From Acidimicrobiaceae bacterium (lineage in GTDB: Bacteria > Actinomycetota > Acidimicrobiia > Acidimicrobiales > RAAP-2), in the NCBI GenBank assembly GCA_027355725.1, contig DAIEHI010000084.1, forward strand, positions 1-64,000: DNA of 64,000 bases, read 5' to 3'. The position numbers and the translations under genes were made by a program. This document shows positions 3,719-30,601 of this stretch, one piece after another; the first letter of the stretch is position 1; every line of letters starts with the position of its first letter. The notes beneath the pieces were generated by a model. It was given only the letters and a program-made list of their open reading frames with translations. It was not told where the DNA came from and did no database searches.

Positions 3719-3947
3719 GAGACGCCGTCGCTCACAGTTGTCTCTTCGCCGAGTTCGCGTCAGCGACACGCCGAGACGACGGCTGCTTCTGATGTTCGAG
3801 GCTCCTCACGAGCGCGATGGGCGAGTCCACGTCGGACTCCTCACAGACCGATGCTCACCGGCGCTCCTCCAACTCATTGTGATCAGCGTTCTTCTTGCTG
3901 CACGACGCGTCGCGTCAGATGTACACCTTCGTCGTTAGGCTGTGATC

Positions 3948-4904
3948 ATGCCCGCCGTCACTGTTGATAATCCACTCGAACTGCCCCGGATCGTCCCCGC
4001 CAAGCCCGAGGACCGCGCGCGTCGCGTCAAATCCATCACCACCGCGCCGCGCGGACTTGAGGGCGAGGGCTTCCCCGTTCGTCGTGCGTTCGCCGGGATC
4101 GACCTTGCCGACCTCGACCCCTTCATCCACATGGACCAGATGGGTGAGATCGACTACGGTCCGGGCGAACCCAAGGGCACGCCTTGGCACCCCCACCGCG
4201 GGTTCGAGACGGTCACCTACATGATCGAAGGCACGTTCTTGCACCAGGACTCCATTGGTGGAGGCGGCATGATCCAAAACGGCGCCACCCAGTGGATGAC
4301 CGCGGGTGCGGGTATCTTGCACATCGAGCGACCACCAGATGCGCTCATCGACTCGGGCGGACTCTTTCACGGCATCCAGCTCTGGGTCAATCTCCCCTCC
4401 AAGTTGAAGATGACTTCGCCGCGCTACCAGGACATTGGATCGAACGCGGTGACGTTGTTGACCAACGAGAACGGCGATGCCATCATCCGGGTCATTGCCG
4501 GGAGCCTGGGTGACATCGAGGGCCCGGGTTCGACGCACACGCCCATCACCTTGGTGCACGCGACGTTGCTGCCCGGGGGCCAATTGGTGCTGCCCTGGAA
4601 CCCTGAGTACAACGCGCTCACCTACGTCCTCGCCGGTCGCGGCAGCGCCGGTCTGCAACGAGATGCCCTCGACGAAGGACAGATGGCCGTGCACGTCGAT
4701 GGTGACGTGGTCATCCTTTCAGCCAACGAATCCCAGGATTCTCGCACCGACGCCTTCGAGGTGCTGATTCTCGGTGGCGAACCCATCCGCGAGCCCGTGG
4801 CCGCCTACGGACCTTTCGTGATGAACACGCGCGCCGAACTACAACAGGCGTTCGAGGACTACCAGGCCGGGCGACTCGGTCAGATCCCCGCCGATCACAT
4901 CTGA
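3948..4904 (+). CDS. Pirin family protein
   Basis: A bicupin of about 318 residues. The N-terminal cupin carries the pirin metal site: HPHRGFETVTYMIEG followed by the QWMTAGAGILHIE segment. Pirins bind Fe or Zn; some have quercetinase activity and others act as redox-linked modulators. The ATG at 3948 is preceded by an AGG at 8 nt, which is better placed than for the GTG at 3942. Its last 10 bp overlap the end of the convergent hotdog gene. Function in this organism cannot be narrowed further. Confidence 0.9.
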   Translation: MPAVTVDNPLELPRIVPAKPEDRARRVKSITTAPRGLEGEGFPVRRAFAGIDLADLDPFIHMDQMGEIDYGPGEPKGTPWHPHRGFETVTYMIEGTFLHQDSIGGGGMIQNGATQWMTAGAGILHIERPPDALIDSGGLFHGIQLWVNLPSKLKMTSPRYQDIGSNAVTLLTNENGDAIIRVIAGSLGDIEGPGSTHTPITLVHATLLPGGQLVLPWNPEYNALTYVLAGRGSAGLQRDALDEGQMAVHVDGDVVILSANESQDSRTDAFEVLILGGEPIREPVAAYGPFVMNTRAELQQAFEDYQAGRLGQIPADHI

Positions 4905-26330: not shown

Positions 26331-26494
26331 CGCTTCACCAACGAAGTAATCACTCAATTTCATTCGCATCATCAGCGATTTATTAGCACATCACACCTGT
26401 CGAGACGATGAAGAAACTGAGGAGTTCGTCTCATTCGATTTCTTGTAGAGTAAAAATTCTTGGGGGTCGGAGCAGTCGACAACGGGAGTTCACA

Positions 26495-28192
26495 GTGGTC
26501 ACAGATCTTCTCGACACCTCGGGGCCAATTGAACTCTCGCCGCGTGTGTGGTGGGTAGGCGCGCGCAGAGCCGACAACAAAGTCCTCTATCACTCGTACC
26601 TTCTCGAACAAGGCACTCAGTCAGTGCTCATCGACCCCGGATCGGCGCTCACCAGTGGCGACATGATCAAGAAGGTGAACGCGGTGGTCGGACTCGACAA
26701 CGTGCGTTGGTTGGTCTGCTCACACGCCGAACCAGACGTCATCGGCTCACTTCCTGCGTTGATCGAGAGTGGTCTACGTCGCGACGCCGAAGTCGTCACG
26801 CACGCACGAAACGAAGCGCTCATTGTCCATAACGGTCTACCTCTCGCGTTCTGGAGGATTGAGGATCACGACTGGCGACTCGAGCTCGAGGATTGCGCGC
26901 TGCACTTTGTCTTCACTCCCTATCTCCACTCAGCTGGCTCGTTCGTCAGCTTTGAAGAGGCCTCGGGCACACTCTTCTCCTCCGACATCCTGAGCGGCCT
27001 TGACGACGATGAGTCGCTCTTAGCCCACTCACTCGCCTACTTCGACAGTGTTCGAGCGTTTCACGAGCAGTACACGCCCAGTCGAGAGATCCTCGCGCAC
27101 GCGGTACAGAAGTTGCGGGAGTTGCCCGTACGGCGCGTAGCGCCTCGGCGTGGCCAGGTCGTTCCCGAACCGCTCGTCGCGCCGCTGTTCAGCATGCTTG
27201 AGAAGCTTGAGTGCGGCATCCACCTCCTCGCCCGTGACGATCCCGACCTGGCGTTTCTGCTCGCCGCCAATCAAACGCTGCACGACGTGGTTGACACCCT
27301 GGTCAAAGAGCAACACTTCTCTGGAATCGCGACGCACCTCGCGGGCCTGGCCAGCCACTCGTTGGGAGCTGAGTACCTCGAACTCTGGGCGGCGGCGGAC
27401 AAAGTGACACTTCGATTCGATCGCAGCGATGCATACAGCGGGCGCGCCGAGGAACCTCCACCAGATGTCGCACTGGTGCTCGCGGGCGCGGCCCCGGTCC
27501 AGGGACGCCGGCTCATTCTGCCCTTGAGTTCGCCCCACGCACGGCCGGGGAGTGTCGATTATGCCATTGTGTTGGGCTTCGACGAACCACGCGTACTCAA
27601 CGAATCAACCATGGCCGTGATTGATCAGATCATTGGCCTCGTCGAGGTTGGACTTGAACGAGAGGTCCTGTTGCGCACGGCCGATCTCGAGCGCGCGACC
27701 TGGCACACCCGAGCCATCCACGACAATTTGACGGGGCTCTACAACCGGGTATCGCTCGAGGATCTCATGCAACACCAACTGAAGCTCGACGACACGAACT
27801 CGCCTTCTGAACTTGCGGTACTCATGATCGATGTCGATCATTTCAAAGGCATCAACGACACACTCGGCCACCTTCGAGGGGACCAGGTCCTTCGAGCGGT
27901 GGCCAACTCGATCACTCAGAGTGTGCGCCCCGAGGACCTGGTCTTTCGATTCGGCGGTGAGGAGTTCCTCGTCGTGCTCGCTGGAGTGGACGTGATGGTA
28001 GCGACGCTCGCCGCCGACAGAATCCGTACCCACGTCAGCGAACTCGCCACCGCAGTACCGTCGGTCACCGTCAGTATCGGTGTTGCGCTGCGACATCCTC
28101 ACGAGGACTACGAGGCTCTGGTCGCGCGCGCCGATGACGCGCTCTATCGCGCCAAGTTGAAGGGGCGCAATCGCGTCGAGACAATGCTGTAG
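26495..28192 (+). CDS. ODP-like diiron sensor fused to a GGDEF diguanylate cyclase
   Basis: 565 residues in three parts. Residues 1-225 are a metallo-beta-lactamase-fold domain like flavodiiron/ODP proteins: LLEQGTQSVLIDPG, ligands H77-x-E79-x-D81, H145 and D164 at canonical spacing. The last usual His (PSHG motif) is Arg219 in APRRG. Residues 230-400 are an unassigned linker domain, possibly GAF-like. Residues 408-565 are GGDEF with NLTGLYNR, active site GGEEF (487-491) and an inhibitory RxxD site RPED exactly five residues before it. The GTG start has GGGAG 6 nt upstream. Predicted: makes c-di-GMP in response to oxygen, NO or iron state. No flavodoxin domain is present. Confidence 0.85.
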   Translation: MVTDLLDTSGPIELSPRVWWVGARRADNKVLYHSYLLEQGTQSVLIDPGSALTSGDMIKKVNAVVGLDNVRWLVCSHAEPDVIGSLPALIESGLRRDAEVVTHARNEALIVHNGLPLAFWRIEDHDWRLELEDCALHFVFTPYLHSAGSFVSFEEASGTLFSSDILSGLDDDESLLAHSLAYFDSVRAFHEQYTPSREILAHAVQKLRELPVRRVAPRRGQVVPEPLVAPLFSMLEKLECGIHLLARDDPDLAFLLAANQTLHDVVDTLVKEQHFSGIATHLAGLASHSLGAEYLELWAAADKVTLRFDRSDAYSGRAEEPPPDVALVLAGAAPVQGRRLILPLSSPHARPGSVDYAIVLGFDEPRVLNESTMAVIDQIIGLVEVGLEREVLLRTADLERATWHTRAIHDNLTGLYNRVSLEDLMQHQLKLDDTNSPSELAVLMIDVDHFKGINDTLGHLRGDQVLRAVANSITQSVRPEDLVFRFGGEEFLVVLAGVDVMVATLAADRIRTHVSELATAVPSVTVSIGVALRHPHEDYEALVARADDALYRAKLKGRNRVETML

Positions 28193-28214: not shown

Positions 28215-29330
28215 TCACCCGAGAAGAACGAGCGCCGCGAGCGCCGCCGCCAACGACAACGGCACGGTCCACAGTCCGAGCGAACTCGCGCGAGCGATCG
28301 ACGGTTGCGCCCCCGCGACGCGGGCCGCTCGAAGCCAGAGTAACCACGCGAGCGATCCACTGACGAAGAGATTCGGACCGAGATTGAGTCCAACGAGTAG
28401 CGCGTAGGGGTGAGGCGGGGCGTGAGCAGACAGCAGCGATGCGGCAGGCAAGTTGTTGAAGACCACTGACGCGAGTGCCGCCACTGCCCCAGTTGCCCAG
28501 ACGTTCAGATGGGCCATCGCCGTCGAGGGGTACGACCAGGCGCGCCCGAGCGTGCCCAATGCGACAGCGATGCCAAAGAGGCCGATCAGTACGGGCACGC
28601 CCAGCACCTCGAACACGTGACCTATGTTGTCTCGTTTATTCACGAGTCGCGTCGCAATCGCCGCCACTCCAACACCTAGGACCTCGAGGGCCGGTGATGC
28701 CAGTGCGACCACGAACAACGCACAGGTGCCTATCGCCACGAGCCCGAGGCCCCAGGTCACAGGCGACGAGGCGGGGGCCGGGGACGAGCGCACGCGTAGT
28801 TCTCGGTGTTCGTGAATCGCGAGTACGCCCGCGGTCACGATCAACGCAACGAATCCCGGCGCCCACATGTGCGAAATGAAAGCAGCGCCGGTCAGACGTG
28901 CGTGACCGAGCACAATCAAATTGGTGAGATTCGAACCTGGCAGGAACAATGAGCCGGCATTGGAGAGCAAAAGGCATCCGTACAGAAGTGGCGCCTCTCC
29001 CCCATCTCGACTTCGAGCCGCGTAGACGAGCACCGGCGTGAGAAAAGCCACCGAGGTATCCAGGTTGAGCACCGCCGTCACGGACCCGATAAGGATCGTG
29101 GCACCAACGAAGAGAACGACACCGCTCGACGACGCTTTCGCGAGTCGCTCACCAGCGGCTTTGAAGAGTCCGTCATCATCAGCAACGAGTCCCACCAGCA
29201 AGAGACCCGTGACAAGCACGAAGGGCGACCAGTCCTGAACCGCAGCGGACCATGCGTCGTGACCATTGACGAAAAACGCCACCGCACACGCAATAACGCC
29301 GCCGATCCCGAGCGTGCTCGAGAGAGACAT
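28215..29330 (-). CDS. ArsB/SLC13-type ion transporter
   Basis: About 371 residues with 10-11 membrane spans. It shows the two-fold inverted repeat of the ion-transporter superfamily: NLDTSVAFLTPVLVYAAR and GSNLTNLIVLGHAR in the first half, FNNLPAASLLSA and NLGPNLFVSGSLAWLLWLR in the second. These resemble ArsB arsenite/antimonite permeases. No arsR, arsC or arsA is adjacent, so the arsenite assignment is only a family resemblance. GTG 29342 with GAGG at 5 nt is an alternative start. It is convergent with the ODP-GGDEF gene. Confidence 0.8.
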   Translation of the reverse strand: MSLSSTLGIGGVIACAVAFFVNGHDAWSAAVQDWSPFVLVTGLLLVGLVADDDGLFKAAGERLAKASSSGVVLFVGATILIGSVTAVLNLDTSVAFLTPVLVYAARSRDGGEAPLLYGCLLLSNAGSLFLPGSNLTNLIVLGHARLTGAAFISHMWAPGFVALIVTAGVLAIHEHRELRVRSSPAPASSPVTWGLGLVAIGTCALFVVALASPALEVLGVGVAAIATRLVNKRDNIGHVFEVLGVPVLIGLFGIAVALGTLGRAWSYPSTAMAHLNVWATGAVAALASVVFNNLPAASLLSAHAPPHPYALLVGLNLGPNLFVSGSLAWLLWLRAARVAGAQPSIARASSLGLWTVPLSLAAALAALVLLG

Positions 29331-29539
29331 TCTCTGACGCACTAGGACCTCGTCTCCATGTCGCATTCGTCCACGAACGACATCGCCCCGACATCGCTTC
29401 GCATAACTCGCGCGGGTGATTCGTGGCCGCTCAGCGTGCTGATTTTGGCGGTAACCACCGAACGTTCGTACCACACTCGACGTAGTCCTCGTCGAAGCGC
29501 TAGCGGGGCGGGGCCGATTGAGGCGATACTGGCTGGACA

Positions 29540-30601
29540 ATGAATGTTGCGAGATTACCAGCGAACGAGCCTCACGATGCGAACGTCCTTGGCGTGATGC
29601 GCTCACTCGGCTACACACCCGATGACAAGTTCGTGCTCGACGTGCACACTGATATTGGTCGCGTGAGCATCGTGCACGGAGCGCGGTGTGAGGTCATCTG
29701 GGTCAATCACAGCGGCATCGAACAGACTACCGATTGTCATGTTTCGCCCAGTGCGGCGACGCGTCCAGTGGCCGGGGACTGGGTGACACTCGAGAACGAG
29801 ACGATCGTCAGCGTCATGGCGCGACGCAGTGCACTGCGTCGTCCTGACCCCAACGGACGCGACGTCCAAGTACTCGCGGCGAACCTCGATCTCGTCCTCC
29901 TCGTCGTGCCAATCAACAAAGGACTGAACGTTCGAATGCTCGAACGCTTCGCCATCATGGCGTGGGAGAGCGGTGCACAACCGTTCGTCGTGCTCAGCAA
30001 AGCCGATAAGGCCCGTGACGTCGCCACACTGATGGAAGAGGCGAGAATGGCCGTACCGGGCGTCGAGATACTCACCACGAGTTCTGAGAGTGGTGAGGGA
30101 ATCGCGCACCTTCGAGCACTCCTGCACGATGGCGTTACGGCGGTGATGCTCGGTGCATCGGGCGCGGGCAAGACCTCGCTGCTCAACGCTCTTGAGGGCT
30201 CGGCCGAGCTCACAAAGACCGTGACACGACACGGCGAAGGTAGACACGCCACCACTACCCGCAAGCTCTATCGGCTCAAGGCAGGTGGTGTCCTGCTCGA
30301 CATTCCCGGTATCCGGCTGCTCGACCTCATGGTCGGCCAAGAGGGGCTGAGTGAGACATTCTCCGATATAACAGCGTTGGCGATCGACTGTCGATTCCGC
30401 GACTGCGCCCATCACGGTGATCCCGGGTGCGCAGTCGAAGCGGCGGTCGCCTCAGGCACCTTGCCAAGTCGGCGGCTCGACAACTGGCGCATCGTGAAAC
30501 GTGAACTCACTCACCAAGAGCACCGACGCGCCCCCGAGGAAATGACGCGCGGCCGTCGAACGAAGCCAAGACCGCGCGACGAGCGCGACCAAGACGACTG
30601 A
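29540..30601 (+). CDS. rsgA: Ribosome small subunit-dependent GTPase RsgA
   Basis: A 353-residue circularly permuted GTPase that helps mature the 30S subunit. An N-terminal OB domain (~1-100) is followed by G4 LSKADKAR, G5-type TTSSESGEGI, then G1 GASGAGKTSLLNAL, G2/G3 RHATTTRKLY and DIPGIR. The Zn finger is C-x5-C-x-H-x5-C (CRFRDCAHHGDPGC). A basic, Arg-rich C-terminal tail binds rRNA. It is divergent from the ArsB-like gene. Confidence 0.95.
   Translation: MNVARLPANEPHDANVLGVMRSLGYTPDDKFVLDVHTDIGRVSIVHGARCEVIWVNHSGIEQTTDCHVSPSAATRPVAGDWVTLENETIVSVMARRSALRRPDPNGRDVQVLAANLDLVLLVVPINKGLNVRMLERFAIMAWESGAQPFVVLSKADKARDVATLMEEARMAVPGVEILTTSSESGEGIAHLRALLHDGVTAVMLGASGAGKTSLLNALEGSAELTKTVTRHGEGRHATTTRKLYRLKAGGVLLDIPGIRLLDLMVGQEGLSETFSDITALAIDCRFRDCAHHGDPGCAVEAAVASGTLPSRRLDNWRIVKRELTHQEHRRAPEEMTRGRRTKPRPRDERDQDD

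Follow-up and report, generated by a model that had tools for sequence, protein, structure and literature searches.

The window, a 64,000-nt stretch of DNA from an Acidimicrobiaceae bacterium, carries on its forward strand an ODP-GAF-GGDEF diguanylate cyclase gene (26495..28192), defined by translation and Pfam, which starts with GTG and encodes 565 residues. The start at GTG 26495 is supported by a ribosome-binding site six bases upstream (GGGAG, 26484-26488, forward strand) and by nucleotide conservation, in two sister species, of the 58-nt leader that precedes the gene (26437..26494, forward strand). This leader is 95% identical in one sister (G035) and 89% in the other (G020), in spite of nearly saturated synonymous sites in the gene; TTCTTG occurs in it twice, at a distance of ~20 bases. 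Among the 99 genomes of the window's genus, the leader sequence occurs solely in front of the ODP-GGDEF gene, and Rfam gave no match within or near the gene, leader included. An alternative start, ATG 26408, was dropped: nucleotide conservation of the upstream stretch extends to synonymous positions, and G020 is without a start codon at that place.

Genes for an MFS transporter, a methyltransferase, ODP-GGDEF, a permease, and RsgA follow one another in this order in three species, the window's own included, and the orthologues share 83-85% identity with the window protein. The predicted permease ORF (28215-29618, reverse strand) extends over the beginning of the rsgA-like GTPase gene, which runs in the opposite direction (29540-30601, forward strand). 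The window's own genome has this as its one ODP gene, along with about 15 GGDEF matches, and is assigned to Actinomycetota by its three WhiB genes. A search of five genomes of the genus (G000, G035, G020, G374, and G379), the window's own among them, gave no PilZ domain (PF07238).

Domain architecture of the window protein

The N-terminal ODP domain, which has the MBL fold (residues 11-241; 26525..27217, forward strand), matches PF19583 with an E-value of 6.2e-43 and a score of 147.4 bits against a curated cut-off of 27.2, covering model positions 4-194 of 194; the Pfam ODP/Lactamase_B matches fall at residues 33-220. The GGDEF domain (residues 407-560; 27713..28174, forward strand) matches PF00990 with an E-value of 2.3e-44 and contains a further, sub-threshold palm-domain match. 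A chance origin of the ODP and GGDEF matches (E about 1e-43 and 1e-44) is far out of reach. As the earlier, sequence-only reading had noted, no flavodoxin domain follows the MBL domain: Pfam finds none in the protein, and a GGDEF domain comes after the ODP domain instead, so that the arrangement is not that of a flavodiiron protein. The GGEEF motif (residues 487-491; 27953..27967, forward strand) is intact in the sequence and in the homologue alignment, and an RxxD inhibitory-site motif (RPED, R478-D481; 27926..27937, forward strand) precedes it at the five-residue spacing originally described, while the metal- and guanine-site residues D446, N454, and D463 are conserved. Judged by these motifs, the window protein is a predicted diguanylate cyclase with a putative product-inhibition site, and the proposal that an ODP-family input domain and an intact cyclase are joined in one protein is borne out by PF19583, PF00990, and the fold matches.

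The full-length model was built from 40 homologues and has a mean pLDDT of 88, with a pTM of 0.54 that makes the placement of the domains uncertain. Comparison with ODP and FDP structures, a check that the sequence-only reading had put forward, showed that the model follows solved diiron ODPs and flavodiiron proteins in fold along the entire domain; as far as fold goes, the first refuting outcome named in that reading, ligands that fail to converge on one site, did not arise. Specifically, the ODP part of the model superposed on 6qwo with Z 29.6 (241 residues, 2.5 Å) and on the peroxo-diiron ODP 6r9n with Z 28.5, with Z 26-30 overall for solved oxygen-binding diiron proteins, and the C-terminus matched c-di-GMP-bound GGDEF domains with Z 25-26. 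The nearest solved proteins by sequence are likewise oxygen-binding diiron proteins (6qnm/6r9n and 6qrq/6qwo), followed by flavodiiron proteins; identity to the closest solved sensors is only about 22%.

The middle ~170 residues had been described as being without an assigned fold. Modelled separately, this region (residues about 242-400; 27218..27694, forward strand) reached a pLDDT of 82.7 and matched GAF domains with Z-scores from 12.6 (best, 3cit) to 10, and nearly all of its best 50 fold matches were GAF or GAF-like. Even at E-values up to 1, Pfam finds no GAF domain in the window protein, and the only homologue with one is L214, whose middle part differs. On the evidence of the model, the middle region is a divergent GAF domain that lies here below Pfam detection; it ends in a long helix (370-408) running into GGDEF.

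Metal-ligand positions and their loss in the family

The residues singled out in the sequence-only reading (H77, E79, D81, H145, D164, and R219) stand in the translated ORF exactly where it placed them. The H77-x-E79-x-D81 motif (HAEPD; 26723..26737, forward strand) aligns with HxExD/HxDxD of solved FDPs and ODPs; H145 (YLHS from residue 143; 26927..26929, forward strand) occupies the proximal-iron ligand position of His147 in the E. coli FDP, and D164 (SSDILS from residue 162; 26984..26986, forward strand) that of the bridging Asp166 (PMC13133992). In the homologue alignment, R219 (APRRG from residue 216; 27149..27151, forward strand) replaces the distal-iron His. Whereas solved ODPs read HQDPD, MHSPG/LHSTG, SGDIG, and APQHG, the window protein reads HAEPD, LHSAG, SSDIL, and APRRG, and its ligand set, H-E-D-H-D-R, is incomplete with respect to the six residues of the diiron sensor. 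All 55 complete-site homologues have His at position 219, where each of the three members of the window's group has Arg. Only this group has APRRG; the family motif, in the great majority of complete-site proteins, is APQHG rather than the PSHG-type motif first suggested. Because APRRG also occurs in the syntenic orthologues of G035 and G020, R219 is not a sequencing error, and the reported loss of the last usual His extends to the nearest relatives.

The E. coli FDP holds its proximal iron with His79, Glu81, His147, and Asp166 and its distal iron with Asp83, His84, Asp166, and His227 (PMC13133992). The corresponding proximal set H77/E79/H145/D164 is complete in the window protein, with the FDP-type Glu, and the distal site consists of D81, the bridging D164, V82 at the position of His84, and R219 at that of His227. 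Solved ODPs also have Val at the His84 position; with V82 and R219 at both distal His positions, the distal site of the window protein is without any His.

ODP-GAF-GGDEF is an existing, unnamed architecture, present in Magnetococcia, two Alphaproteobacteria, and the window's actinobacterial order. A literature search found no paper on an ODP-GGDEF protein, nor metal, ligand or activity data for one, and plasmid records gave no match to the protein. The 99 genomes of the window's genus hold 35 copies in 26 genomes, and other families of the order a further three; in the phylum outside this order the architecture is rare, as judged with a strict threshold and few candidates scored per genome. 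Outside the phylum it is present in Magnetococcales and Roseospira marina, in 31 of 48 Magnetococcia genomes (a few matches carry another output domain) and in one further genome of 289 in the class of Roseospira. The copies from Magnetococcia, R. marina, and other actinobacteria of the order match the window protein from end to end in their three domains and in how these are arranged, and homologues are 36-59% identical to the window protein. Other fusions of the ODP unit occur in Magnetococcia, with a class III nucleotide cyclase (L211:1143-3494), with hybrid histidine kinases (L210:881-4429 and L213:344-3910), and with a PAS histidine kinase (L214:492-2978), with a complete ligand set in every one; fusion of ODP-GAF to kinases and class III cyclases is as expected of a sensory input module. 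A family search for the architecture, as had been proposed, found it elsewhere, with the APRRG motif limited to the three-species group of the window.

Outside the window's genus, each of the 40 distinct copies carries H-D-D-H-D-H, as opposed to H-E-D-H-D-R in the window protein, which marks the sensor site as ancestral. Of the 35 copies within the genus, 15 are complete and 20 lack at least one of the six ligands (Fisher p 4e-9 for complete versus altered, outside versus inside the genus, a statistic that ignores relatedness), so that conservation of H77, E79, D81, H145, and D164 does not hold as a family rule, an outcome that the sequence-only reading had itself listed as refuting and that here speaks against a conserved diiron sensor. 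The altered sets comprise HEDHDR in the window's three species, where it is syntenic, QDDRDH in six species, and QDDPNL, QDDPKI, NDDVNH, NDDPSH, TEDPSR, QHDHAH, QDDHDH, HDDHVH, DDDRDH, DDDHDS, and NDDHDH, giving at least a dozen combinations of lost ligands. D81 is invariant (75/75). Relatives of the QDDPNL or TEDPSR type have very probably given up metal binding. Every genus copy with a complete GGDEF domain keeps RxxD, GG[DE]E[FY], D446, N454, and D463; two are cut short, G363b near a contig end and G379b by an insertion. The latter (L174:1331-3969) has a complete diiron site and a GGDEF domain split by ~1.15 kb (matches at 1331-2611 and 3760-3969). Copies of the NDDVNH/NDDPSH type (L029 in G030 and L030 in G021) have other GGDEF genes within a few kb, unlike the window's copy.

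When the ligand columns were left out of the tree, the groups of the window and of QDDRDH, among others, each received full support, with an unresolved backbone. All altered copies could still descend from a single early loss, which simple parsimony with regain allowed renders as three changes; however, the lost residues differ between groups, so that without regain at least three to four losses per ligand are required (four each for H219 and D164, three each for H77 and H145). A hetero-dimer, in which an altered copy leans on an intact paralogue, was considered and is not favoured, as both kinds occur in only 4 of the 26 gene-carrying genomes; 14 have altered copies only, with the reservation that all of these genomes are incomplete.

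Within the window's group of three species, dN/dS is 0.075-0.135 for the ODP domain, about 0.05 for the GAF domain, and 0.045-0.076 for the GGDEF domain, values that are rough owing to near-saturation of synonymous sites. The ODP domain in this group is under purifying selection. Complete-site proteins share 101 positions conserved at ≥90% (68 in ODP, 33 in GAF/GGDEF), eleven of which have changed and become fixed in the window's group (28, 30, 31, 32, 79, 146, 149, 165, 166, 218, and 219). All eleven lie in the ODP domain (11/68 versus 0/33; Fisher p 0.015), and seven are ≤5 residues from a ligand (p 0.043). Changes that are confined to the ODP domain, clustered near ligands, and then fixed point to a pocket that was remodelled and afterwards conserved, rather than to general decay.

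Readings of the altered sensor site

The best reading of these sequence comparisons is a c-di-GMP cyclase whose diiron sensor may have become a one-metal or metal-free pocket. The protein would be a soluble, one-component diguanylate cyclase, in which a signal from the ODP sensor would pass through the GAF domain and the long helix to a GGDEF dimer subject to product inhibition through its RxxD site. The ancestral module would have carried a diiron site that sensed Fe(II) and O2, by homology with the ODPs of Treponema and Thermotoga (for what these sense, see PMC7666581). The ODPs of Treponema denticola and Thermotoga maritima (6qnm, 6r9n, 6qrq, 6qwo) resemble the window protein in their PF19583 family and fold, in the order of the ligand positions, and in having an MBL domain without flavodoxin; they are, however, stand-alone, chemoreceptor-coupled proteins with a complete six-ligand site, whereas the window protein is a GAF-GGDEF fusion in which the distal His is Arg. 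Since these full-ligand ODPs are already sensors, H219R alters a sensor, and the earlier idea that the change turned an enzyme site into a pure sensor is set aside.

In the window's lineage, the only His of the distal iron (H219) would have been exchanged for Arg with the proximal set left complete, and one metal, probably iron, may be held at the proximal site as in the mono-iron MBL-fold enzyme ETHE1, the positive charge of Arg219 being placed beside D81 and D164. We assign a rough probability of 0.45 to the reading that the domain holds a single metal, probably iron, and remains responsive to iron, O2, NO or redox state, with its chemistry changed. Flavodiiron proteins (E. coli flavorubredoxin, D. 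gigas ROO) share the MBL-fold diiron core and the proximal H/E/H/D with the window protein, which differs in lacking flavodoxin, FMN, and the distal His residues, and in having a signalling output rather than NO/O2 reductase function. ETHE1, a persulfide dioxygenase, also has the MBL fold and binds one iron through the equivalent proximal His, His, and Asp (PMC4383860), residues that are present in the window protein; yet it is an enzyme of the glyoxalase-II branch that keeps its distal-site residues and has no signalling domain, while the window sequence belongs to the ODP family. Relatives short of more ligands keep working-looking cyclases, which counts against the one-metal reading and implies that the metal may be dispensable in the window protein too; it could also be that no metal binds at all in the presence of Arg219. 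The metal count, the ligand sensed, and the direction of the effect on cyclase activity are all points that we infer.

It is possible, although less probable, that the ODP domain is metal-free and owes its retention to a regulatory, dimerising or partner-binding role as a folded unit, or to the sensing of a small molecule in the emptied pocket. Whole ligand sets have gone in the same genus (QDDPNL, QDDPKI, NDDPSH, TEDPSR) with cyclase motifs intact, more than half of the gene-carrying genomes have altered copies only, and even the invariant D81 can be structural in the MBL fold. However, no altered group other than the window's has all four proximal ligands, including the FDP Glu at position 79, and random loss should not have left these four in place. 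An unlikely alternative is that the domain is still a canonical diiron O2/Fe(II) sensor in which D81, D164, and water hold the distal iron: D81 and the bridging D164 do remain, the PDB contains T. maritima FDP variants that have lost the other distal His (H90) by replacement (4dik, 4dil, 5v8s), and ODPs in general are without that other His, but this leaves ODPs with one distal His only, which is here a cationic Arg in a motif limited to the window's group.

An enzyme of the ETHE1-like dioxygenase or hydrolase kind, in which turnover rather than binding would set cyclase activity, appears very unlikely. The mono-iron precedent with the same three ligands exists in ETHE1 (PMC4383860), but in sequence and fold the window protein comes closest to ODPs and flavodiiron proteins rather than to ETHE1 or glyoxalase II. 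Least credible is a decaying, functionless gene, for which the broken genus homologue G379b could be cited; the window's copy has an open frame, dN/dS is well below 1 in all three domains, and leader and synteny are kept in three species.

For the genus as a whole, we tentatively suggest, at somewhat less than even odds, that a diiron O2/Fe sensor has been re-tuned or disarmed many times, through loss of the distal site, of the proximal site (Arg/Gln for His in QDDRDH) or of the whole site, with the resulting pockets under selection, which would form a natural series from diiron through mono-iron to metal-free. The non-haem diiron inputs to c-di-GMP signalling covered by a review are hemerythrin domains (PMC8846402), as in Bhr-DGC of Vibrio cholerae, where a hemerythrin-GGDEF protein couples a non-haem diiron O2/redox sensor to a GGDEF cyclase (PMC8846402); that sensor is a helical bundle, unrelated in fold to the ODP domain of the window protein. 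ODP-GAF-GGDEF would therefore be a second, unrelated kind of non-haem diiron c-di-GMP input, in two phyla. The window's genus, in turn, holds close natural variants without distal, proximal or all iron ligands and with the cyclase untouched, so that the contribution of the metal to signalling is testable on a handful of proteins.
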